DNA of 64,000 nt, from positions 1-64,000 of the forward strand of contig JAGONM010000005.1 in the NCBI GenBank assembly GCA_017993055.1. The letters run 5' to 3'. The notes beneath the pieces were generated by a model. That model was not told the origin of the DNA, did not search any database, and saw only the letters and a program-made list of their open reading frames with translations. Shown here in pieces: positions 26,098 through 41,477 of the stretch. The translations under genes and the position numbers were made by a program. Each line of letters begins with the position of its first letter. Positions within the stretch are counted from its first letter, which is position 1. Origin of the DNA: Armatimonadota bacterium (GTDB lineage: Bacteria; Armatimonadota; UBA5829; DTJY01).

Positions 26098-27225
26098 TTA
26101 GAGGCAGACTCGGGGGATGCGGCTGGAGGTGGTGGTTCTGCGCGCAGGGACGATGACCTCGTCGCCGACCTGTACGCCGGGGATGTCGGTGACGTCCACC
26201 GAGGTCATCTGCATCGAGACGCGGCCGATGACCGGGGCCTTCGCTCCCCTGACGGTCACACACTCGCCCCGGCGGCGAAGAAGCCTGCGGGCAAGCTGCT
26301 GGATCGGCGACGAGGCGCGCCGGGCGAGGCTCTCCGGGATCAGGGTGAAGCCGTCGCAGTAGCCGATCGGGATCACGGCAGCCTTCGTGACCCGTGCTGT
26401 CGTGTGTTCACTCCCATAACCGACCTTCGAGCCCGCGGGAAGCTCCCTCAGCGCGACGATGCGCGTCTTCAGCCGCCAAGTGTCTTCGAGTTCTATCTTT
26501 CGCTCGGTGTGGGCGGTCGGGAACTGCCCGTAAAGGATGGTGCCGGGGCGAACCATGCCGTAGTGTGAATCGGGCAGATTCAGGATCGCCGAGCTGTTCG
26601 CCGCGTGACGCAGGCCGGTCGGCAGTCCGAGTTCATCGAGTTGCGACAGGAGTCGTCCGAACCGCTCGTTCTGCCTGCGCGCGCTCGACAAATCCTTTGC
26701 GCCGGCGTTGGCGAAGTGAGTGTAGATGCCGGCGACCTCGACGCCGGGAGAGCCTGCCGCCTGCGAGATGAAACCCGCGCACTCGGAGGGCATCAGCCCG
26801 AGGCGGCCCATGCCGGTGTCCACCTTGACGTGGACACGCGCGGCCTTGCCGGCCCTCTTCGCAGCCTGAGAGATACCGCGAAGGGATTCGGGCGAGAACG
26901 AGGTAAGATCGAGGTCGGCATCGAGCGCCGCGGACATCTGATCGGGCAGGAGCGGACTGAACACCAGAGTCGGTGTGCCGATCCCAGCCTCACGAAGCTC
27001 CATCGCCTCTTCGAGCGTAGTGACAGCAAGGTAGTCGGCAGACGGTTCCAGCGCCTTGGAGACCTCGACCGCACCGTGGCCGTAGGCATCAGCCTTGACG
27101 ACGGCCATGATCCTGACCGTCGGGCCGACGAGGCCCCGGATCTGCTCCAGGTTGCGGACGATGCTCTTCAGGCTTACTTCGACCCAGTGCGTGTTCACAG
27201 CTTGCAGCCTCTGTCGGACCGACAC
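26098..27225 (-). CDS. alr: Alanine racemase
   Basis: This 375-residue PLP enzyme makes D-alanine for peptidoglycan. The PLP lysine motif VVKADAYGHG is at ~43-52, and the catalytic tyrosine region is KVGYGSEHT with VIPIGYCDGF. The start is GTG, in line with the M14 gene 11 bp upstream. The C-terminus (VIVPARRTTTSSRIPRVCL) is unlike the usual GDEV-plus-short-tail end and stops within a few bases of a hexanucleotide repeat, so the last ~12 residues may be remodelled. It clusters with an M14 peptidase and a FemAB-like protein, consistent with cell-wall work. Confidence 0.93.
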   Translation of the reverse strand: MSVRQRLQAVNTHWVEVSLKSIVRNLEQIRGLVGPTVRIMAVVKADAYGHGAVEVSKALEPSADYLAVTTLEEAMELREAGIGTPTLVFSPLLPDQMSAALDADLDLTSFSPESLRGISQAAKRAGKAARVHVKVDTGMGRLGLMPSECAGFISQAAGSPGVEVAGIYTHFANAGAKDLSSARRQNERFGRLLSQLDELGLPTGLRHAANSSAILNLPDSHYGMVRPGTILYGQFPTAHTERKIELEDTWRLKTRIVALRELPAGSKVGYGSEHTTARVTKAAVIPIGYCDGFTLIPESLARRASSPIQQLARRLLRRRGECVTVRGAKAPVIGRVSMQMTSVDVTDIPGVQVGDEVIVPARRTTTSSRIPRVCL

Positions 27226-27236
27226 CCGCGACCGCC

Positions 27237-28199
27237 CTACCTCGGCCGGCGCTTTCCCCGCGAGGCGAGCATGCGCTGGTTCTCCAGCTTCCAGTCCGCG
27301 ATACGCTGGGCCAGCTGGCTCTCGCGGCCCGCGAGGTACTTGGCAATCGTCATCGCGCCGACGATGTGCAGGTGCATCCTGTATTCGATGTAGCCCGACC
27401 TCGCTCCTGCCTGTCGGGTCTCGAACAGGAATGTCTTGGTGTTCGCGCAGGTGGGGAAATGCCGATGGGCGAGCTCGGTCCCGCGCAGGTTGTCAATGTG
27501 ATAGCTGGTTACCTCGATGCCGTGAGTCTGAAGCATGCCCACCATGAGGCTCTGGATACGAACCGACTCCTCAACGACCTCGGCGCTCGCGCCCGACGAC
27601 GGCCCGGCGCACTGGAGATAGTCACTGCCGCGATTCGTCGGGCTGAGCTCGTGCGCGTCAACGATCACCTCGGGCGCGACGAGGTCTATCGCGGCCCTGA
27701 CGGCACGGGTCTCCGGCTGGGCGAGAGCGACCCAGTCGCGGTTGAGATCCACGCCCTCAGCGTTCCGGCGCTGCTTCCGTTCGGCCCCGTCCGGGTTGAC
27801 CATCGGCACGATGAAGAACGACACCCTGTCAAGCAGGTCGGCGTCTTCATCGCTCGGACTGGTCACCAGGTCGGTGATGAGCTTGAGCATCGCCTCGGTG
27901 GTCGCGGGCTCGTCGCCGTGCTGACGGCACATGACGAACATCCGCCTGGTGTCCGCCAGAGCGACCCCCGGACTTGCCAGGACGACCATAGGTATCTCGC
28001 GGCCCTGAACCGAGCGGCCCACGGAAACCAGGGTCATGCGGCCCTGCCCCACGGACCCGTCGGCCAGCTCGAGCGACGCGAGCCGCGTCATCATCTCCTT
28101 GTGTGAAGTGAGCGCGGGCGCCGAGAGCGACGCACCCGCGATGAGAACGGCGAGCGCCAATGAGAGCGCGGCGCATGCCGGTAACGACTTGCTCTGCAC
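27237..28199 (-). CDS. Secreted M14-family zinc carboxypeptidase
   Basis: This 320-residue protein starts with GTG after AAGGAGC and has a signal peptide (ALSLALAVLIAGASLSA). Zinc and catalytic residues of M14 peptidases are visible: the HxxE pair in RQHGDEP, the later histidine in VIVDAHELSP, the substrate-binding VDLNRDW, and the general-base glutamate in FLFETRQAG. M14 members include peptidoglycan D-glutamyl-diaminopimelate endopeptidases and succinylglutamate-type amidases. Its place between alr and a FemAB-like gene suggests a peptidoglycan peptide substrate, which is inference from context. Confidence 0.83.
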   Translation of the reverse strand: MQSKSLPACAALSLALAVLIAGASLSAPALTSHKEMMTRLASLELADGSVGQGRMTLVSVGRSVQGREIPMVVLASPGVALADTRRMFVMCRQHGDEPATTEAMLKLITDLVTSPSDEDADLLDRVSFFIVPMVNPDGAERKQRRNAEGVDLNRDWVALAQPETRAVRAAIDLVAPEVIVDAHELSPTNRGSDYLQCAGPSSGASAEVVEESVRIQSLMVGMLQTHGIEVTSYHIDNLRGTELAHRHFPTCANTKTFLFETRQAGARSGYIEYRMHLHIVGAMTIAKYLAGRESQLAQRIADWKLENQRMLASRGKRRPR

Positions 28200-28241
28200 T
28201 ACTTGCTCCTTACTTGCCGTGTCCGAGAACCAGATCCCGAA

Positions 28242-29345
28242 TCACAAATCCGTTCCGCCCGGGGCATGCCGTCCACCACCCCGCCGGTTGAGCGACTTCA
28301 TCAGCACCGAGACGCGCGGCTTGGCGGTCACCCAGAGCCAATACCAGGGCGTCGAGTACGGCAGATCGAACTCCCCGACGTACTCGACGAACTGCGCGCC
28401 GAAACCCGCCTTGAAACGGTTCAGGCCCTGCAGGTGATCGTCCTCGGCGTCGGAATCCTGCTTCTGGGAGACCCCTCGGAAGTCGTAGACGGCGCAGCCG
28501 GATTGCTTCGCCCACTCGATCATGCGCCACTGCATGAGATGGTTCGGCATGACGTTGCGATGCTCGTTGCTCGAAGCGCCGTAGGTGTACCAGCACTTGT
28601 CACCGAAGACGAACGACAGCGCCCCGGCGATGACCCGGCCCTCGTACTCCGTGAGGAATAGCTTCGCGTATCCCGGCTCGACGAGGTGCGTCCACATCTG
28701 ATCGTAGTACTCGAAGCCGCGGACGAGGAAGCGGTCGCGCACGGCTGTCTCCCGAAGCACTTTGTAGAAAGCCTTCAGGTCGTCTCGCGTGCACGAGGAG
28801 CGCACGGTGACATCCTTCTTCTCTGCGAGGCGGATGTTGTAGCGCCACTTCGGCTTGAACCCGGCGAGAATCTCATCGAGCGTTGGCCGGAGATCGAGCT
28901 GCATCACGCACCTGGGCTGGACGCCGCCGAACCCGTCCTCGTCGGCGATCCTCTTGAAGCCCAACTGCTCGAACGGAGGCGCTTCGTCTTCGATCCGTAT
29001 CGGCGGGTCAATCTTGAGGAGAATCGCCCCCTCTCGGGATGCGCGCTCTCGGACACCATCCAGGAGTGCTGAGAGCACGTCGGTCGAGCCGGAGAAGTCG
29101 CACACGGGGCCGCGCGGGGCATAGAAGATACACTTGTTCACCAGGCGGTGAAGCCGGCGCTCGAGGACGGAGACCGCGCCGACGATCCGCCCGTCGTCCT
29201 CGGCCGCGAGGCGGATGGGCCGCCAGCCGCCGGATGCCTTGAGATCGCCCCATTCGAAGGACTGGAGGAGGTCGCCGGTCTTCTGCGCGGCGACGAAGTC
29301 GTTCCAGCGCGTCCTTTCGCTCTCGGGGATCTCTCGCACCTGCAT
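28242..29345 (-). CDS. FemAB/FemX-family peptidyltransferase (GNAT fold)
   Basis: This 367-residue protein has the two-domain GNAT-like fold of FemA/B/X enzymes, which add amino acids from aminoacyl-tRNA to the lipid II stem peptide. Recognisable stretches are LLQSFEWGDLKASGGW near the N-terminus, KWRYNIRLAEKKDVTV in the middle, and YDFRGVSQKQD with GLNRFKAGFG near the C-terminus. The ATG at 29345 follows AGAGGCAGG; an upstream in-frame ATG overlaps the promoter leader. It is the first gene of a femX-M14-alr group and carries a consensus promoter. Amino acid and acceptor specificity are unknown. Confidence 0.85.
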   Translation of the reverse strand: MQVREIPESERTRWNDFVAAQKTGDLLQSFEWGDLKASGGWRPIRLAAEDDGRIVGAVSVLERRLHRLVNKCIFYAPRGPVCDFSGSTDVLSALLDGVRERASREGAILLKIDPPIRIEDEAPPFEQLGFKRIADEDGFGGVQPRCVMQLDLRPTLDEILAGFKPKWRYNIRLAEKKDVTVRSSCTRDDLKAFYKVLRETAVRDRFLVRGFEYYDQMWTHLVEPGYAKLFLTEYEGRVIAGALSFVFGDKCWYTYGASSNEHRNVMPNHLMQWRMIEWAKQSGCAVYDFRGVSQKQDSDAEDDHLQGLNRFKAGFGAQFVEYVGEFDLPYSTPWYWLWVTAKPRVSVLMKSLNRRGGGRHAPGGTDL

Positions 29346-29380
29346 GAAACCTGCCTCTGGGGGTGAAACCATCCGAGGGG

Positions 29381-29409
29381 ATTCTAACACAGACGGCAAT
29401 CCGTGTCAA
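29381..29409 (-). promoter_or_regulatory. Sigma-70-type promoter of the femX-M14-alr group
   Basis: On the minus strand TTGACA (29409-29404), a 17-bp spacer and TAGAAT (29386-29381). The transcription start should lie near 29375. Confidence 0.9.
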
Positions 29410-29418
29410 AAGCAGAAC

Positions 29419-29445
29419 GGGCGATGGAGAGGGTATCCATCGCCC
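29419..29445 (-). terminator. Terminator candidate of the ABC/OPT operon
   Basis: GGGCGATGGA and TCCATCGCCC form a perfect 10-bp stem with a 7-nt loop, followed on the minus strand by a T-rich stretch (GTTCTGCTTTTG). It lies between the last gene of the operon and the femX promoter. Confidence 0.65.
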
Positions 29446-29476
29446 GAGAGGTCGTCCATTGCGGCGGCCGGGGAGC

Positions 29477-30287: not shown

Positions 30288-30920
30288 CTAGATTTCTACT
30301 CGCAAGGCCATGGCGGGAGGCATCTTGGCCGCGCGGATGGCGGGCGCGATCGTCGCGACGAGCGTCAGGCCGACGCCCACCGCCATCGCTATCCCGAGCG
30401 TGCCCAGAATCGGCAGGAAGCCGATCTTGCCGAACACCGCCGCGCCGTGGCTACCGAGGGCCAGCAGCAATATGATGCCCGAGCCGACGAACCATCCGAT
30501 GAACGACGCGATGACCCCGAGCAGGCCCGATTCAAGGATGAACAGCTCGACAACGAACGAGTCGAGCGCGCCGAGGCACTTCATGGTGCCGATCTCCTTG
30601 TAGCGCTCCGTGACGGACATCAGCATCGAGTTCGTGATGCCGACGGTGCAGACGAGGAGCGACATGATGACCAGCCACGTCTGGCGGTTCTGCGCGGCCT
30701 GGAGCGCCCTCGCATCCATGTTGGCGTCAGGCATGTGCGCCTGGATCAACGCCGTAGTGAGTACCGAGGCGAGGAACGCGATCCCGAGCATGATGCCGCC
30801 GGCGGTGATCATCGAGCGCCAGAACCGAATCCTGATGCTCCGCAGGCTAATCTCGAACGCCTTCCGGAGCGGCAGTTGAACCTGCCGTCCTACTTGTGCA
30901 CTGTCAGTGGTCTTGTTCAT
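30288..30920 (-). CDS. Minimal FtsX-like ABC permease
   Basis: This 210-residue permease has the FtsX core: a first membrane helix (RSMITAGGIMLGIAFLAS), then three C-terminal helices with the coupling segment ERYKEIGTMKCLGAL and the ending PAIRAAKMPPAMALR. It lacks the large periplasmic MacB-type domain; only about 25 residues separate the first two helices, while relatives usually have 200 or more. The start (ATG 30920) overlaps the stop of the PqqD-like gene by 4 bp. It may pair with the giant FtsX fusion encoded upstream as an unequal heterodimer driven by the LolD-like ATPase. Confidence 0.85.
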   Translation of the reverse strand: MNKTTDSAQVGRQVQLPLRKAFEISLRSIRIRFWRSMITAGGIMLGIAFLASVLTTALIQAHMPDANMDARALQAAQNRQTWLVIMSLLVCTVGITNSMLMSVTERYKEIGTMKCLGALDSFVVELFILESGLLGVIASFIGWFVGSGIILLLALGSHGAAVFGKIGFLPILGTLGIAMAVGVGLTLVATIAPAIRAAKMPPAMALRVEI

Positions 30921-31388: not shown

Positions 31389-32291
31389 TCAATGGCACTC
31401 GACCCGATCTATGACGTCGTCCATGATGCGCTCCCGACGGGTGTGCATACTCTGGACTGAGTATATCTTGTTCGATTCCTCGCAGACCCATGCGTAAGCA
31501 TCGAGCCTGAGCGCCGGCACGCGGAACTTGCTGAGATCCCCGATCGTCCGGTAGACCCCCAGAATCCCCGACCGCCGCCCGAGCGCCTGGATCGCGGTCT
31601 CCGGCTCCTCGGGCAATTCCTCGATGCGGTACGAGAATCCCGTCAGGTCGTTCCTCATGCGCCGGCCGAACCATTCGGCGAGAGTCGTGTTCTTCAGCGC
31701 GACGTTCGCGAGTCCCCAGCGCTCGACTATTAGTTGATTCGCGCCCCTGCGAAACTGGAGCTGAAGATACCCGGCCATCAGCTTGTGCTTGTCGAGACGA
31801 TAACCGCCGGGCACGTCGGTACGCAGATCGTACATCGCCCATCTGCGCCAACCGCCCTCGATGTGGTCCGTCACCGAAGGCAGCACGAATGAAGCGACTG
31901 CCGATACGGGATCGCCGGGGACCCCGCTCACCTGGACGATCACGGCGCGGTTGCACTCGGCACATCGAAAGAGCCGCCCCTCGGCCTTTCGGTCGGCGCG
32001 CCAGGTGAAGAACAGGTCGCCACTCTTCTCGCGCGTCTTGCTCTGAAAGTCCAGTTTCCGCTTGCGCGACTTGCGATCGAGATCGCGCAGGAAGGAGTCG
32101 AGCTTCGCCGCGAGATCTACCTTTTCCGAAGCCTCAGACCAACGCACCTCGATGGCGGTCGTGCCTGGACTGGACACCCGGTAGTAGCCGGACTTCTCGT
32201 CGCCACTGACGGAAGAGAGACTCCACTCGGCCGGCGACTCGATTGCTATACCGTGCCAGGCTACGATCGTTCGGCGGTCAGTATCGTTCAT
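31389..32291 (-). CDS. Conserved-context hypothetical protein
   Basis: I do not recognise this 300-residue protein. It has no signal peptide or membrane helix. It shows a C-x-x-C pair in RCAECNRAV (~residues 108-116) and further cysteine and histidine at the very end (VECH), and looks like an alpha-beta protein with two similar-sized halves (~1-150 and ~150-300). It is located between the OPT-like gene (36 bp) and the PqqD-like gene (1 bp) in a tight operon, so it should act with the transport system, perhaps in the cytoplasm or at the membrane. The cysteines could bind a metal. Confidence 0.6.
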   Translation of the reverse strand: MNDTDRRTIVAWHGIAIESPAEWSLSSVSGDEKSGYYRVSSPGTTAIEVRWSEASEKVDLAAKLDSFLRDLDRKSRKRKLDFQSKTREKSGDLFFTWRADRKAEGRLFRCAECNRAVIVQVSGVPGDPVSAVASFVLPSVTDHIEGGWRRWAMYDLRTDVPGGYRLDKHKLMAGYLQLQFRRGANQLIVERWGLANVALKNTTLAEWFGRRMRNDLTGFSYRIEELPEEPETAIQALGRRSGILGVYRTIGDLSKFRVPALRLDAYAWVCEESNKIYSVQSMHTRRERIMDDVIDRVECH

Positions 32292-34340: not shown

Positions 34341-37300
34341 CTATCCCGCCGGGCCGGGCTCGACGGCCGGACGACCGGCGCCGACCGCCGCCGTGTCGGC
34401 CTGTGAGCCCGACAAGTACTTGTCGCGCTCTTCGGCTCGCAGAGTCCGCCAGATCAGGAACTGCTTCCTGAGCGTGTTGAGGAACCTGCGGTTGACCCGT
34501 TTCCAGTTCGATATGTCACCACTCTCGCGGTTGATTGTCAGATGAACCTCGTAGACGTCCTCCATCGAGGTGGGGACCGTCTCCAGAGTGACGTACTGGC
34601 TCACGCCGAGATCGAACGGAGCCAGCCACGCTCGGCAGTGGACGCAGTGGGCCGCGCCGTGCTCGCACTCGCGCAGTGAGGTCTTCACATCCTGCGTGAC
34701 GAAATCGCCTACGGAGTACTCCTCATAGGCCGCGAACCACTCCGAGATGAAGCTCGTGACCCCCTTCGCCTGCTCGCCGGTGACCGCGAACGGAAGCATT
34801 ATCTGCCAGACGTCGCCGACCGGGTCCGGAACCTTCCAACTCCGCTCGATGGCCGGCGTGGCGACCTCGGAAGCCTTCCTTGCGGGGTAGATCGTCGAGA
34901 GCAACACGACTGCAACCACGATCAGGGTCGAGAGAACCGCCGACAGCGAGCTGAAGTTGAGATAGAGGCCCTCCAAGAGGTTGAAGGTGTATATCAGCTT
35001 AGAAGCGATCTGGCCGATCAGGTAGCCGGCTACGGCGCCGAGGATCGCGTAGACCATCGCTTCGGCGATAAACAGCATGGCGATGTGGTTCGGCGCGAGA
35101 CCAAGCGAACTGAAGATGTGGATCTCCTTCACGCGCTCGTAGACCGATCCGAGCATCGTGTTGAGGACGATCAGCGCGGCAATCAGAATCGGCACGAATA
35201 CCGTGCCGAACCCCTTGCCCGACTTCGTGGCGATCGAACTGTAACGGTAGGTCCTGTCGCCGAGCCCCGCGTAGAGGTTCAGGCCGAGCCTCGGCATCAG
35301 TTTGTCGAGAACGGTCTTGACCTCGTCAGGCGTCACGAAGTCTATGCCGATCGAGCGGATCTCACCACCGAGGTTGATCAGAGTCTGATACGGAACGAAG
35401 AACGTGGTATCCGGCTCGAGGTGCGTGTACTCGCGGAAGCCGGCCTCGCCCATTGACTTGCCCTGAGACGTGAGCTTGTTCATCAGGATGAAGTCCACCG
35501 GGGTCAGCGTCTCGTTATCCAGGTCGGTAATCGCCTTGACCTTCGCGTTGTCGAGAATCCCGATGACCGTGTACTCGACCCCGCTGAACGTGAGCTTGGC
35601 CTTGCCGACATCCTCGTCGGTTATCTCCAGCGCCTTTGCGATGGCGCCGGGAACGACCATCGAGTAGGTGTCCTGGCTGTTGAACCACCGACCGGCGACC
35701 AGCGCTTTGGTAATACCCGTGACCTTGTCCTCTTCCGGAGAAGCGCCGACCGCGCCCTTCGCGTCGTAGGTCTTGTCGTTTCGCTTCAGGGTGAGGAAGG
35801 TCTGCTCTCCCAGGAACGCCCCGAAGAACCATGCTCTCGGAGCGACCGCCCGGGTCTCGCCGAACTCGTCCTTCAACAGACGGACGGCCGGTTCCTGGAG
35901 CGGCTCCCACATTGCGGTGCGGAGCATCAACCCGTTGTATGCCGGCTTGCCGGGAGCGGGGACCTTGTTGAAGCGCATCGTCTGGACGATGGAGGTGAAC
36001 GAGAGCACGGTGAACGTCAGGAGGACCAGGGTGATGCAGGTCAGCACGGTCCTCGCCTTGCGGCGCCTCATGTTCGAAATGCCTAGGGAGAACGCCGCGG
36101 CGGCGATGCTCATACGGCCTATGTCAACCTTGTGCACGCCGCTCATGCTGCGGTTGAGCGCCTTCAACTGCTCCTCGAACTTGTTAGCTACCAGCACCGT
36201 GACCATCACGCTGAGGGCCAGCATGATGAAGGCGATGAACACGATCGCCGGGTTCATCGTGATGTCGAACGCGGGGTGGAAGTACCGGAACAGCATGAAG
36301 ATGATCAGGAAGATGCCGAACACGCCGATGATCTGCCGCTTGAGGTCCGGGAACGCGAAGAACAGCCTCTCGCAGAAGTAGGCGAACGGAAGGAGCAGCG
36401 CGAGGTAGAACAGCACCCCGTTGACCACGTCCTTCGCGGTCTTCTGGACATCGGGGTACGCCCTAGCCTCATAGCCCCACGCGGCCCTGGAGTGAGCGTC
36501 GAACGTCGAGTACTGGTTCGCGGCGAGGGCCGACTCCGCGAGCTTGATCTCCCCGCCCGCGAGGCCGTGAAGCTCGTTGATTCCCTCGTTGATGATGCGG
36601 TACTTCTCAAGACGCCGGATGCGGAACTCGTCGAGGTTCCACATGTCCTGCGCGACCTTCAAGGATGTGTTGATGATCGCCTTTCCGTTGCCGACGAGGT
36701 AGCCGTTGCCCTCCGGCTCCTCCTTGGTGGAGTTGACGAGGACGAGCCTGACCGCCGCAGGGCCGGCCGCCATGACGATCTTGAGGCGCGTCTCCGGCAT
36801 GGTGAAGATGACGGCCACGTCCTCCACGTGTGACACCTGCCACTCCGGCACGGCCAGAGAGTAGCCGTACATCCGCGGGCGGCCGTTCGTGGCGCCGTCG
36901 TAGATGTCTATCATCGGCAAGGTGCGAAGGGCCTGCGGGTCAATGAGGTCGAAGACCGAGGTCGCCTTGCACTTGAAGAGGACGATCGGTATATCCTTGA
37001 TGCCCGAGGCGACCGTCACGGCAGTCGGGTAATAGTCGGCACCGAACACTCCCATATCCGGGGAGAACGTGATCTCACCGTCGCTCGGATCGAGCTTGTA
37101 GGCGGCGACGTTCGTCATGCGCGCCGGGCCCTGATAGGCGGTAAGCGGCGCCGCGCCGGGGAAAGAGAACTTCGCCTTGTCGTCCACCATGCCGATCATA
37201 TTGCCGCGGACGCCCATCAGCGTCTTGTTCAGGCCGACGTGCCGGATGACGACGAGCGAGCCGGTGACGGGGGAGTTCGGGATGAAGCCTTCCTTCAGGT

Positions 37301-38909
37301 TCAGGATGAGCGTCTGACCCTCGAGCCGCGCGAAACCTCCCTGAAGCGTCATTCGCGAGAAGATCGAGGGCTCGGTGATCGGGAACTTCGGCGCGTCCAC
37401 GACCTCGGGCGCGTTCGTGTCGTTCAGAATGTGGCTGAAGAGGCACGCGAGCAGCCGGGTCTGCTGGGCGAGGTTGGCGAAGTTCACCTTGTCCGCGGTG
37501 TCGAACGGGGTATCCACGAGCGCGCGTGAGTCGTCGGTACTGACAAACGATATGCCTCGCGCGCCCGCGAGAGTCCACGCCTCCGCATCGAGGCCGATCT
37601 TGCCGGGGATGAAGTTGCGCCAGTTCTTGCCGGCGATCGGGTTCACGCCGTCCGCGAACGCCTTCGCCGGGTCGAAGCCGAGCACGGCGCCGATCGCCTC
37701 GGAATTCTCGCGGCAGACGCGCGCTATGTCCGAAAACTTGTTCTGGATGTCCTCGCGGAAGTCGTAGAAGTAGCCCTTGTAGAATATGCCGACGCCCTTG
37801 GTCTGACTGGTGAGATCGAGGCCCGCCATGAGGTAGATGTGCGGCGGCTTGCGGACGGTCCGACGCTTCATGCCGGGGATCCATCGGCTGAACCACGCGC
37901 CGAGCCTCGCGCCCGCGCCGGGCTTCTGGAGTTCGGGCAGGTGAAGCTCCAGGTACTCGCGCATGCCCTGCAGGCTCTGGAAGTGCCCGCTCGTGGCAAT
38001 GAACCAGACTGTGCGGGCGGGCGGATGCTTTTTGTAGATGCGGGCAAGCTCCAGCATCGAGGCGATGCCGCACGCGCTCTCCGCGCCGGGGGCGAGGCTC
38101 GGGACGACGGAGGTCGAGTCGTAGTGGGCCTGGATAACGATTATCTGATCGCGCAGTTTCGGGTCGCTGCCGGGGATGACCCCGGTGATGTTGCTGGTCG
38201 GAAGCCGCTTCCACTTCGAGTCGCAGGTGAGCTTGACCCTGGGCATGCCCTTCGCGCAGAGCGCCTGGAGGGACGCCGCATCGGCCTTCGAGATCCAGAA
38301 GCGCGGGATCGAGATCGGGATCGAGATGAACTTCGCCTCCGCCTCGCCGCGCATCGTCGTGTCCGGCTCGATGAAGACGACTGCCGTCGCGCCGAGCCTG
38401 GGGGCGTTGAGCCACTCCGAGCCGGAGTTGAACTCCATCAGGACGACGCTGCCCTCGACCGGGTAGCCGTCGAACTCAGAGAGCTTGCCGGAGCCGGCGT
38501 ACATCATCGGGCCGCCGATGCCCTCGCGGGGAAGCTGGGTGGTGCGGACGAGGTTCGGCCACATCGAGTGGAGGCGGTATGACTTGCCGCTGACGGTAAG
38601 CGATGCGCCCTCGTCCACGGGCACGGTAGCGTAGAAGGGCTCGCGCTTGACGTCCGTGAGGCCGATCTGCTTGAACTGCTGCTCGATGTAGTCGCCGGCG
38701 GACTCGCATCCGGGGTAGCCGGCGATCCGCGAGCCTTTGGCCGCGAAGAGCTCGACGGTGCGGGCGAGATTGGACGCCTGCACCTCGGCGGCGAGGGTCT
38801 CGTAGACCTTCGCAAGCTTCGGGTTAACCTTGGGCTTGGGAGCCGCGCACGCGGTCGCAGTCAGCAGACATGCCAGGAAGACGAGTGTGGTAACCCTACG
38901 GTTGGTCAT
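34341..38909 (-). CDS. Giant fusion: degenerate M28 peptidase domain plus FtsX permease
   Basis: This 1522-residue protein begins with a signal or anchor (VTTLVFLACLLTATAC). Residues ~30-500 form an M28-type domain with a PA-like insert (~130-240). The first metal site is partly kept (QAHYDS), but PGAESACG lacks the bridging aspartate, the two glutamates expected after VWFIAT are absent (SGHFQS) and the last zinc histidine is missing (LVDTPFDTADK), so it should be inactive. A periplasmic region (~500-825), three membrane helices (~830-910) and an FtsX unit (~940-1370) with coupling helix ERVKEIHIFSSLG follow, plus a cytoplasmic tail with CEHGAAHCVHC. ATG at 38909 is preferred over TTG at 38918. 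Confidence 0.85.
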   Translation of the reverse strand: MTNRRVTTLVFLACLLTATACAAPKPKVNPKLAKVYETLAAEVQASNLARTVELFAAKGSRIAGYPGCESAGDYIEQQFKQIGLTDVKREPFYATVPVDEGASLTVSGKSYRLHSMWPNLVRTTQLPREGIGGPMMYAGSGKLSEFDGYPVEGSVVLMEFNSGSEWLNAPRLGATAVVFIEPDTTMRGEAEAKFISIPISIPRFWISKADAASLQALCAKGMPRVKLTCDSKWKRLPTSNITGVIPGSDPKLRDQIIVIQAHYDSTSVVPSLAPGAESACGIASMLELARIYKKHPPARTVWFIATSGHFQSLQGMREYLELHLPELQKPGAGARLGAWFSRWIPGMKRRTVRKPPHIYLMAGLDLTSQTKGVGIFYKGYFYDFREDIQNKFSDIARVCRENSEAIGAVLGFDPAKAFADGVNPIAGKNWRNFIPGKIGLDAEAWTLAGARGISFVSTDDSRALVDTPFDTADKVNFANLAQQTRLLACLFSHILNDTNAPEVVDAPKFPITEPSIFSRMTLQGGFARLEGQTLILNLKEGFIPNSPVTGSLVVIRHVGLNKTLMGVRGNMIGMVDDKAKFSFPGAAPLTAYQGPARMTNVAAYKLDPSDGEITFSPDMGVFGADYYPTAVTVASGIKDIPIVLFKCKATSVFDLIDPQALRTLPMIDIYDGATNGRPRMYGYSLAVPEWQVSHVEDVAVIFTMPETRLKIVMAAGPAAVRLVLVNSTKEEPEGNGYLVGNGKAIINTSLKVAQDMWNLDEFRIRRLEKYRIINEGINELHGLAGGEIKLAESALAANQYSTFDAHSRAAWGYEARAYPDVQKTAKDVVNGVLFYLALLLPFAYFCERLFFAFPDLKRQIIGVFGIFLIIFMLFRYFHPAFDITMNPAIVFIAFIMLALSVMVTVLVANKFEEQLKALNRSMSGVHKVDIGRMSIAAAAFSLGISNMRRRKARTVLTCITLVLLTFTVLSFTSIVQTMRFNKVPAPGKPAYNGLMLRTAMWEPLQEPAVRLLKDEFGETRAVAPRAWFFGAFLGEQTFLTLKRNDKTYDAKGAVGASPEEDKVTGITKALVAGRWFNSQDTYSMVVPGAIAKALEITDEDVGKAKLTFSGVEYTVIGILDNAKVKAITDLDNETLTPVDFILMNKLTSQGKSMGEAGFREYTHLEPDTTFFVPYQTLINLGGEIRSIGIDFVTPDEVKTVLDKLMPRLGLNLYAGLGDRTYRYSSIATKSGKGFGTVFVPILIAALIVLNTMLGSVYERVKEIHIFSSLGLAPNHIAMLFIAEAMVYAILGAVAGYLIGQIASKLIYTFNLLEGLYLNFSSLSAVLSTLIVVAVVLLSTIYPARKASEVATPAIERSWKVPDPVGDVWQIMLPFAVTGEQAKGVTSFISEWFAAYEEYSVGDFVTQDVKTSLRECEHGAAHCVHCRAWLAPFDLGVSQYVTLETVPTSMEDVYEVHLTINRESGDISNWKRVNRRFLNTLRKQFLIWRTLRAEERDKYLSGSQADTAAVGAGRPAVEPGPAG

Positions 38910-38990: not shown

Positions 38991-39200
38991 CAAGCGGCAT
39001 CCTGGGGGACTGAGATGATATGGGAAGACAACCGATCCCAGCAGGAATACCTAAGGAAACCCAGTAGGAATACCGAAAATCGAAGTGCGGAACAGTGTAT
39101 GACGCGCATCTACGACCCGGGAGGGCGGATTGCAGTACGGAAGGTCGTGGGCCGAAGCACCGCCGACGGCCCTGTATCGAGCAACAGGAGGGGGAGGAGC

Positions 39201-41477
39201 TTGAAAAAGAGCAGATTTCTTCGCATCGTCGTGTCCGCGGCGTTCGCGCTGCAGATGGTGATCGGTTTCAGCATGCCCGTTTACGCGGGCACCACCGGCA
39301 TCATCGCGGGCACGATCACGGACGGCGCGACCGGCGAGAAACTCGCCGGCGTCAACGTTATCGTGGAGGGCACGAGACTGACGACAGTGACCAACTCGCA
39401 GGGTTACTTCGTCATCACGAACGTGCCGCCGGGCGACTACACCGTGTCAGCGAGCCTGGTCGGTTACTCCGACAGCATATCGGAGCAGGTTTCCGTGCTG
39501 ATGGACGTGACCGCGACGACGGACTTCGCGATGGAGACGGCGGTCGCGGAGGAGGAGACGGTTATCGTCTCGGAGAGCAGGCCGATGGTCCGCCCGGACG
39601 TGGTGCCGACGATGTACGTCGTCAGCTCCCAGCAGGAGAAGGAGATCCTGGGCCAGCCCTCTAGCCGCTACCAGGCGCCTTCGATCGTCCTCACCCAGCC
39701 GGGCGTAGTGGCCGATGCCGACGGGTACCCGCACATCCGCGGCGGGCGCGTCAACCAGATCGGCTACATGCTGGACGGCATACCGATCACGGAGCCGGTC
39801 ACCAACGGGTTCGGAACGAACCTAATGACCCTGGGGATGGACAAGATGGAGGTCTACACCGGCGGATACAGGCCGGAGTACGGCAACGCGATCAGCGGAG
39901 TCTTCAACCAGGTAGTGAAGACCGGCCGCACGGCCCCGGGGGTCGCGCTCGAGATGACCGGGGGCAGCAACTCATACTCCTGCGTGTTCCCTGAGATCGG
40001 CGGAGGCACGACCGGCGGACTCGAGTATTACGTCGGCGCATATATGCAGAAGAGCGACCTGGAGAGCATGTCCTACATCAACCAGGACAACATGGACCTG
40101 ATCGGAAAGTTCGCCCACCCGATCGGCGGCAGGGGAGCCCTGACGTTCCTGACCGCGAGCGGCCAGGGCAAGTACGAGATGGACACCGCCCACACATGGA
40201 CTTACGGGACCGGCGGGCTGGTGGAGATCCCGGAAGAGCAGGACTTCGTGAACCAGAGCTACGTGCTGCACGCCCTGACCTACAACCACACCATCAACTC
40301 GTCCTCGTTCTTCACACTGCGGCCGTACTACTTCCGCAACGCCTGGAAGCTGGACGCAATCTCGGACGACGTCGGGACGTGGTGGGACGCCGAGTCCGCA
40401 ACTACGGGCCTGCTGTTCGACTACACGAACCAACTGGACGACAGACACCTGCTCAAGGTGGGCGGACAGTGGATGAAGAGCGAGAACAGCTACTGGGTGA
40501 TCGTGCCGCCGTACGGCGACTACGAGTACACGGCCAACACTGACACTCTGCAGACAGCATGGTTCATCCAGGACCAGATGAAGCTGAGTTCCATGATGGG
40601 GCTCGAGGCCGGCCTGCGCTATGACCGGATGAAGTACGACAAGGTCATCAACGACGACACATCGGAGTCTCAGGTCAGCCCGAGGCTCGGCCTGACCTAC
40701 GCGATGAACGGCAGGACCAACCTGCGGGCATCGTGGGGCAAGATGATCCAGTTCGTGTACACACAGGCCGTCGAGCGCAACTACGTCAACCCGGACTGGA
40801 TTGACTGGATGGGTCTCGACAACGCCGACCTCCAGCCGGAGCGGGCGACTCAGTGGGACATCGGCTGGGAGAGCCAGGTGGCCGACAACCTGGCCGTCAG
40901 CGTGACCCCGTTCTACCGGGAGTTCGACAATATGCTGCAGGTGATCTCGCTCGATCCGACGGACCCGGAAGGGTATCCGAGGGCATTCGAGAACCTGGGC
41001 AAGGGAGTCAGCAAGGGGATCGAGTTCCAGGCCCGTAAGCGCATGAGCGACAACTGGTCGGGATGGCTCTCCTACACGTACCAGAGCGCCAAAGCCCAGG
41101 CGAACAACGACCGGGAGACGATCACCTCGGACGACATGAACTATGTGGACTGGGACCAGCGGCACACGCTCGTCGGAGTGGCGAACTTCAAGGGCGGCGA
41201 CTGGATGTACAGCCTGATGGGCGAGTACGGCAGCGGCCTGCGGTACAACCTCGCCACCGATACAGCGCCGAACTGCCGACGCGTCGGCTCGCATCTCACC
41301 TTCAACCTGAACGTCGGGCGGAAGGTGTCGGGAGGCTGGCTGCCTCAGGGCACGATGAACTTCAGCATCGCGAACATATTCAACAGCCGCGCGGCCCTGG
41401 ACCGGGACTACGACGGCGCTCCCAGCGTCAAGATACCCCCGAGATTCGTGGCCGCATCGTTCACCAGGCAGTTCTAG
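39201..41477 (+). CDS. TonB-dependent outer-membrane receptor with carboxypeptidase-regulatory-like domain
   Basis: This 758-residue protein starts at TTG 39201, with GGGGGAGGAGC in front and a signal peptide (IVVSAAFALQMVIGFSMPVYA); the upstream frame lacks these. A carboxypeptidase-regulatory-like domain (TGIIAGTITDGATGEKLAGV, ~30-110) precedes the plug (~140-250, with GGRVNQIGYMLDGIPITEP and NAISGVFNQVVKTG), followed by a 22-strand-type barrel ending in phenylalanine. The ligand is unknown. It is divergent from the FtsX/OPT operon, and a strong terminator follows. The 290-bp upstream region holds the operon promoter but no recognised riboswitch. Confidence 0.88.
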   Translation: MKKSRFLRIVVSAAFALQMVIGFSMPVYAGTTGIIAGTITDGATGEKLAGVNVIVEGTRLTTVTNSQGYFVITNVPPGDYTVSASLVGYSDSISEQVSVLMDVTATTDFAMETAVAEEETVIVSESRPMVRPDVVPTMYVVSSQQEKEILGQPSSRYQAPSIVLTQPGVVADADGYPHIRGGRVNQIGYMLDGIPITEPVTNGFGTNLMTLGMDKMEVYTGGYRPEYGNAISGVFNQVVKTGRTAPGVALEMTGGSNSYSCVFPEIGGGTTGGLEYYVGAYMQKSDLESMSYINQDNMDLIGKFAHPIGGRGALTFLTASGQGKYEMDTAHTWTYGTGGLVEIPEEQDFVNQSYVLHALTYNHTINSSSFFTLRPYYFRNAWKLDAISDDVGTWWDAESATTGLLFDYTNQLDDRHLLKVGGQWMKSENSYWVIVPPYGDYEYTANTDTLQTAWFIQDQMKLSSMMGLEAGLRYDRMKYDKVINDDTSESQVSPRLGLTYAMNGRTNLRASWGKMIQFVYTQAVERNYVNPDWIDWMGLDNADLQPERATQWDIGWESQVADNLAVSVTPFYREFDNMLQVISLDPTDPEGYPRAFENLGKGVSKGIEFQARKRMSDNWSGWLSYTYQSAKAQANNDRETITSDDMNYVDWDQRHTLVGVANFKGGDWMYSLMGEYGSGLRYNLATDTAPNCRRVGSHLTFNLNVGRKVSGGWLPQGTMNFSIANIFNSRAALDRDYDGAPSVKIPPRFVAASFTRQF

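Follow-up and report, generated by a model that had tools for sequence, protein, structure and literature searches.

A giant MacB/FtsX-type permease of Armatimonadota with an M28-fold ectodomain that has lost its two-zinc site, probably a ligand sensor or gate

Here we report that a giant permease encoded in a 64,000-nucleotide stretch of an Armatimonadota bacterium genome (positions 1 to 64,000 of contig JAGONM010000005.1, assembly GCA_017993055.1; hereafter the window) carries an M28-fold, PA-containing ectodomain whose two-zinc peptidase site has been replaced throughout its family, and that this domain is probably a ligand sensor or gate rather than a peptide cutter. Non-catalytic receptors with the M28 fold are known mainly from animals, where they include the transferrin receptor, nicastrin and nicalin. 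Here a bacterial lineage appears to have followed the same course on an ABC permease. A single substitute site is preserved in two or more phyla, the operon is conserved, and the family offers a bacterial system in which to test how a peptidase fold becomes a gate or sensor. On a practical level, domain-based annotation would mislabel these giant proteins as M28 peptidases. A search for M28-FtsX fusions found, within the literature collection covered, no paper with both "peptidase M28" and "FtsX-like permease".

Results

Architecture and fold of the giant permease

The giant protein begins with an exported pseudo-M28 ectodomain containing a PA-type subdomain and continues through a β-rich region and three TM segments into a MacB/FtsX permease and a C-terminal cytosolic tail (Table 1). 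Hydropathy predicts further TM segments, one ahead of the MacB-like domain and three in the C-terminal permease part; by its Pfam matches and TM pattern, the protein has an FtsX domain combined with an extracytoplasmic core after the first permease TM segment, the layout of a Type VII ABC (MacB/FtsX) permease. Because of this topology the M28 domain would be extracytoplasmic. The export segment contains a lipobox-like TATAC, judged by eye only, and a Pfam search matched no family within aa 511-830.

Table 1. Features of the giant permease gene and its operon, in window coordinates
Feature	Position	Strand	Basis
Giant permease gene, 1525 aa	34341..38918	(-)	ORF; Pfam M28, MacB_PCD, FtsX; full-length homologues 40-78% identity
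N-terminal hydrophobic export segment, aa 9-27	38838..38894	(-)	hydropathy
Pseudo-M28 domain with PA-type insertion, aa 30-510	37389..38831	(-)	hhalign, AF2, Foldseek, PA-domain matches
His265, first His ligand position (AAP His97)	38124..38126	(-)	alignment, tree, codon
Glu280, bridging Asp position (AAP Asp117)	38079..38081	(-)	alignment
His312-Phe313, catalytic and ligand Glu pair (AAP Glu151-Glu152)	37980..37985	(-)	alignment
Asp368, AAP Asp179 (Asp of LNMDMVG), kept	37815..37817	(-)	alignment
Asp469, last His ligand position (AAP His256; His of YHTxxDT)	37512..37514	(-)	alignment
β-rich region, then helices near membrane, aa 511-830	36429..37388	(-)	AF2 secondary structure
Three predicted TM segments, aa 831-910	36189..36428	(-)	hydropathy
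MacB-like periplasmic core domain, aa 957-1141	35496..36050	(-)	Pfam PF12704, E 1e-8
FtsX permease C-terminal domain, aa 1241-1350	34869..35198	(-)	Pfam PF02687, E 9e-16
OPT-fold transporter, 665 aa	32328..34325	(-)	AF2 pLDDT 74.8; Foldseek
Conserved 300-aa protein, invariant CxxC (Cys110/Cys113)	31389..32291	(-)	alignment
PqqD-like protein, 156 aa	30917..31387	(-)	Pfam PqqD, 5e-12
Mini FtsX permease, about 210 aa	30288..30920	(-)	Pfam FtsX, 5e-17; homologues 210-250 aa
LolD/YbbA-like ABC ATPase, 249 aa	29477..30226	(-)	NCBIfam LolD 2e-67, YbbA 7e-63
Terminator-like hairpin just 3' of ATPase gene	29418..29446	(-)	11-pair stem

Pfam detects Peptidase_M28 at aa 243-326 (E 2.3e-12), a match that covers just positions 1-79 of the 193 in the profile. 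When the family is aligned by hhalign to ordinary M28 proteins of the phylum (23 sequences), the relationship extends over 399 columns, from the N-terminus of the domain to its end (probability 99.9, E 5e-32), and the domain falls within the M28 superfamily. The family profile matches the PA-containing M28 aminopeptidases 2ek8 (7e-23) and BSAP as well as AAP, and it also matches TfR1 and nicalin, M28-fold proteins that are not peptidases. An AF2 model of aa 30-835, built from 28 family sequences (mean pLDDT 87.5, pTM 0.86), retrieved 2ek8 (5.6e-29), BSAP, TfR1 and GCPII in Foldseek searches, and a PA domain was detected in 14 of 28 homologues. The Aneurinibacillus enzyme 2ek8 and BSAP/YwaD (6hc6) share both the fold and the PA insertion with the pseudo-M28 domain, and AAP (1amp) shares the fold and aligns over the domain. 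Unlike these three enzymes, the pseudo-M28 domain is fused to a permease and four of its six metal and catalytic residues are replaced. TfR1, nicalin and nicastrin likewise present an M28 fold without a peptidase site on a membrane protein, but they are eukaryotic and not ABC-coupled; the resemblance to nicastrin is marginal by sequence, being seen for one homologue at a Pfam E of 0.061.

The former active site

Positions were equated through profile-profile alignment with M28 enzymes, taking AAP numbering as the reference. The initial annotation of this region had singled out four motifs, and every letter of them is in place in the giant protein: AHYDS at aa 264-268 (window 38115-38129), PGAESACG at aa 277-284, SGHFQS at aa 310-315 and LVDTPFDTADK at aa 467-477. 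Its reading of SGHFQS as standing where the two Glu of M28 enzymes are expected, and of LVDTPFDTADK as lacking the final His, agrees with the alignment, which is unambiguous and puts His312-Phe313 and Asp469 at those positions. The bridging Asp is absent from PGAESACG, as proposed, but its site has been substituted by Glu280 and not deleted. The claim that the catalytic and zinc residues were lost holds for the two-zinc set, but not for the Asp179-type ligand, which is kept as Asp368 and had been overlooked. Where active M28 enzymes have the five metal ligands H, D, E, D and H, the window protein has H, E, F, D and D and the family mostly Y, E, F, D and D, and the general-base Glu beside the ligand Glu is likewise missing, its place being taken by His312.

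Across 117 distinct homologous domains, position 312 is His and position 368 is Asp in 116 each, while position 469 is Asp in 111, with three Asn and two Glu also occurring. Position 280 is more variable (Glu in 88, Asn in 16, Asp in 10), and the residue equivalent to the second-metal ligand Glu152 is Phe in most homologues. AHYDS had been described as a retained ligand motif; this is true of the window protein but not of the family, in which position 265 is Tyr in 89 domains, Phe in 15 and His in only 8. The codon is CAC in the window gene and TAC or TAT (Tyr) in sister genera, a one-base difference, and the tree places the change from Tyr to His on the terminal branch of the window protein, so His265 is a recent local substitution and not a remnant; parsimony over the whole tree counts four changes to or from His at this position.

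It is highly improbable that the domain is still a canonical two-zinc aminopeptidase drawing its ligands from shifted positions. The fold is kept, as are the second-shell Asp residues of HxD and HTxxDT, but the whole-domain profile-profile alignment contains no conserved Glu pair and no second conserved His nearby, His312 is the sole His conserved in more than 85% of the 117 domains, and no displaced Glu or His that could rebuild a two-zinc site was found in the domain.

The loss is shared by the family and is not decay

None of the 117 domains retains more than two of the six metal and catalytic residues (one residue is kept in 98, two in 18 and none in a single domain), and the two-zinc site is therefore gone family-wide. 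The losses are thus common to all homologues examined, a scope that the initial annotation understated, and the replacement set of His312, Asp368 and Asp469 was unforeseen there. The motifs AHxD, GA(D/N)D(N/G)ASG, GEE or GED, LDM and HTxxD are intact in the phylum's ordinary M28 proteins wherever our motif scan detected them, the scan being a simple one that overlooked some motifs in some proteins.

By column conservation over 54 clusters, Asp267, His312, Asp368 and Asp473 are all among the 21 best-conserved of 481 columns, and Asp267 and Asp473 are near-invariant in two phyla. The dN/dS ratio within the domain is about 0.01-0.08 for close pairs with finite dS, and the domain is under strong purifying selection. 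Random decay of the site is ruled out by column conservation and dN/dS together: the substitute set is nearly invariant in a domain under such selection, so the loss cannot be put down to decay. The earlier proposal of a pseudo-peptidase retained on an ABC permease is supported in part: the two-zinc site is lost family-wide and the domain is kept under purifying selection, and the binding or sensing role suggested for it is plausible. Conservation of the cleft residues suggests that the old active site serves a specific function.

It is distinctly unlikely that the domain is purely structural, with the M28 fold positioning the giant permease or its partners and the conserved polar residues forming an internal hydrogen-bond network. 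A paralogue at locus L082 (G097:C103) that lacks His312, Asp368 and Asp469 does retain an open frame of 1692 aa, as such a scaffold might. Against this, the former active-site residues match structural Gly, Pro and Trp in conservation across the 54 clusters, and pure scaffolds would rarely keep polar cleft residues. A divergent paralogue of the same kind, also with an open reading frame, occurs at L115.

Distribution

Of 101 Armatimonadota-type genomes, about 80 encode full-length homologues (E 1e-80 or better), while a further 20 gave weak FtsX-level matches or none and one gave a partial match. A species-wide genome collection yielded 35 loci, mostly from Armatimonadota/Chthonomonadia. In a second phylum, that of the Candidatus Zixiibacteriota locus, all 16 genomes examined encode full-length homologues in multiple copies each. 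The family has expanded there, with several paralogues per genome at loci L116, L120, L121, L123 and L138 (the phylum of G101), some of them carrying His at 265 and Asn at 280. Among the homologues and paralogues examined, no intact M28-FtsX fusion was found that could represent an active ancestor; one long ordinary M28 protein that we inspected (L179, 1016 aa) has intact M28 motifs by eye, and the family profile matched no FtsX-like part in it. Spread to Proteobacteria was considered and rejected: the family fragment at L069 lies at a contig end and looks like part of a chimeric contig, and 0 of 200 proteobacterial genomes matched in a search that had no positive control in that phylum.

A conserved six-gene operon

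The giant gene is the first of six genes on the same strand, followed by those for the OPT-fold protein, the CxxC protein, the PqqD-like protein, the mini FtsX permease and the LolD/YbbA-like ATPase, and some 20 loci keep this order. Zipacnadia loci differ in having the genes for the mini permease and ATPase ahead of the giant gene, which means that a close link with the CxxC and PqqD-like proteins does not hold everywhere. A terminator-like hairpin follows the ATPase gene, such hairpins being no more numerous in the region than in shuffled sequence.

Foldseek matched the model of the 665-aa protein to barley YS1 (7wst, E 7.6e-8), with TM scores of 0.60-0.68 to 7wst and 7wsr; it shares the OPT/YSL fold at 12-13% identity, and we assign it to the OPT family on the basis of that fold, Pfam OPT being reached by one homologue only (5.5e-7). 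The 300-aa CxxC protein has other invariant residues, Trp and Arg, across 17 aligned sequences and matches no family in Pfam or NCBIfam. The PqqD-like gene, which stands outside any recognised peptide-maturation cluster, adjoins the mini FtsX permease gene in about 20 syntenic loci; the start of the latter, chosen by inspection, is likely the ATG at 30918-30920, which overlaps the PqqD stop. The mini permease apparently lacks a periplasmic core domain, and the permease pair would for that reason be strongly asymmetric. The small FtsX permease ORF ranges from about 210 to 630 aa among loci L054, L057, L059, L061 and L064, and its extracytoplasmic part has therefore probably been gained or lost repeatedly.

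The ATPase shows 70-85% identity between syntenic loci and, as a LolD/MacB-type protein of the same conserved operon, is a candidate cognate ATPase of the giant permease. LolCDE, MacB, FtsEX and YbbAP-TesA share the FtsX/MacB permease domains and a LolD/YbbA-like ATPase with this system. In contrast to all of these, here one permease is a giant with an M28 ectodomain and the other is small and seemingly core-less, and the operon includes OPT and PqqD-like proteins. The NCBIfam equivalog cut-offs for LolCDE are missed, with lolCE at 24.6 and 37.9 bits against 362 and LolD at 227 against 308.

Past the hairpin, window positions 26098-29399 encode FemAB-like, M14/MpaA-like and alanine racemase proteins, all peptidoglycan-related, whose genes are not syntenic with the operon in other loci. 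On the other side, adjoining the giant gene, lies a divergent gene for a TonB-dependent receptor with a carboxypeptidase-regulatory-like N-terminus (39015-41477), which was not found near the giant gene in the other loci examined.

Discussion

We lean towards the explanation that the non-peptidase M28 ectodomain binds a ligand and serves for both recognition and gating in an asymmetric Type VII ABC complex. Such a complex would pair the giant permease with the mini FtsX permease and include the LolD/YbbA-like ATPase in two copies, and the former active-site cleft, lined by the conserved set of Asp267, His312, Asp368, Asp469 and Asp473, would bind a specific ligand. The M28 fold, OPT transporters and PqqD-like proteins are each tied to peptides or peptide-derived chelates in known systems. 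Since the operon combines all three, a peptide or a peptide-like metal chelate is the most probable ligand. Type VII ABC systems couple their ATPase to an extracytoplasmic domain by mechanotransmission, as described in PMC12646458 and PMC5985334, and we accordingly propose that permease helices moved by ATP may cause the cleft to capture, release or pass on its ligand. Nicastrin provides a precedent for a peptidase-derived site serving as a substrate receptor (PMC2647162), the analogy with the pseudo-M28 domain being functional only, and YbbAP-TesA, as described in PMC12646458, is an earlier example of the pairing of a Type VII ABC system with a periplasmic partner of catalytic fold.

The near-invariance of His312, Asp368 and Asp469 exceeds what a passive binder strictly needs and counts against the gating explanation. 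From sequence, the conserved set fits a specialised binding pocket, and it would also fit a rebuilt mononuclear metal site or catalytic site. A remodelled hydrolase is accordingly a possible, if not a probable, alternative, in which Asp368, Asp469 and His312 would form a mononuclear metal site together with Glu or Asn280, or His312 would act as a general base, on substrates presented by the permease. Besides the conservation of these three residues and of Asp267 and Asp473, it draws on the location of His312 exactly at AAP Glu151: the Aeromonas aminopeptidase 2anp has His at the same general-base position (His151), and the family profile scores it above wild-type 1amp (42.1 against 36.8 bits). 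The engineered E151H form of AAP (2anp) works with its zinc ligands in place, however, whereas the pseudo-M28 domain has lost them. A dinuclear mechanism would be impossible, given Phe at the Glu152 position in most homologues, Asn at the bridging position in some and Tyr or Phe in place of the first His, and the tolerance of three Asn and two Glu at position 469 also speaks against catalysis. The title of a paper cited in PMC4320195 calls AAP E151H functional, and since His312 occupies the Glu151 position, a one-metal or metal-free Asp-Asp-His hydrolase stays a candidate; presentation of lipids to TesA by YbbAP, as reported in PMC12646458, supplies a precedent for the delivery of substrates. 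We regard an Asp-Asp-His active site of this kind, on an M28 fold built into a Type VII ABC permease, as rather unlikely. If present, it would make each of these proteins a single-chain, ATP-driven membrane hydrolase, common throughout Armatimonadota and occurring in a second phylum, with a chemistry new to M28-fold enzymes.

The giants at L048, L050, L061 and L064 have an insert directly after the pseudo-active-site helix, in the stretch corresponding to aa 322-362, that contains one or two hydrophobic TM-like stretches and might tether the M28 domain to the membrane. The giant at L055 has a charged helical insert in place of the TM-like one.
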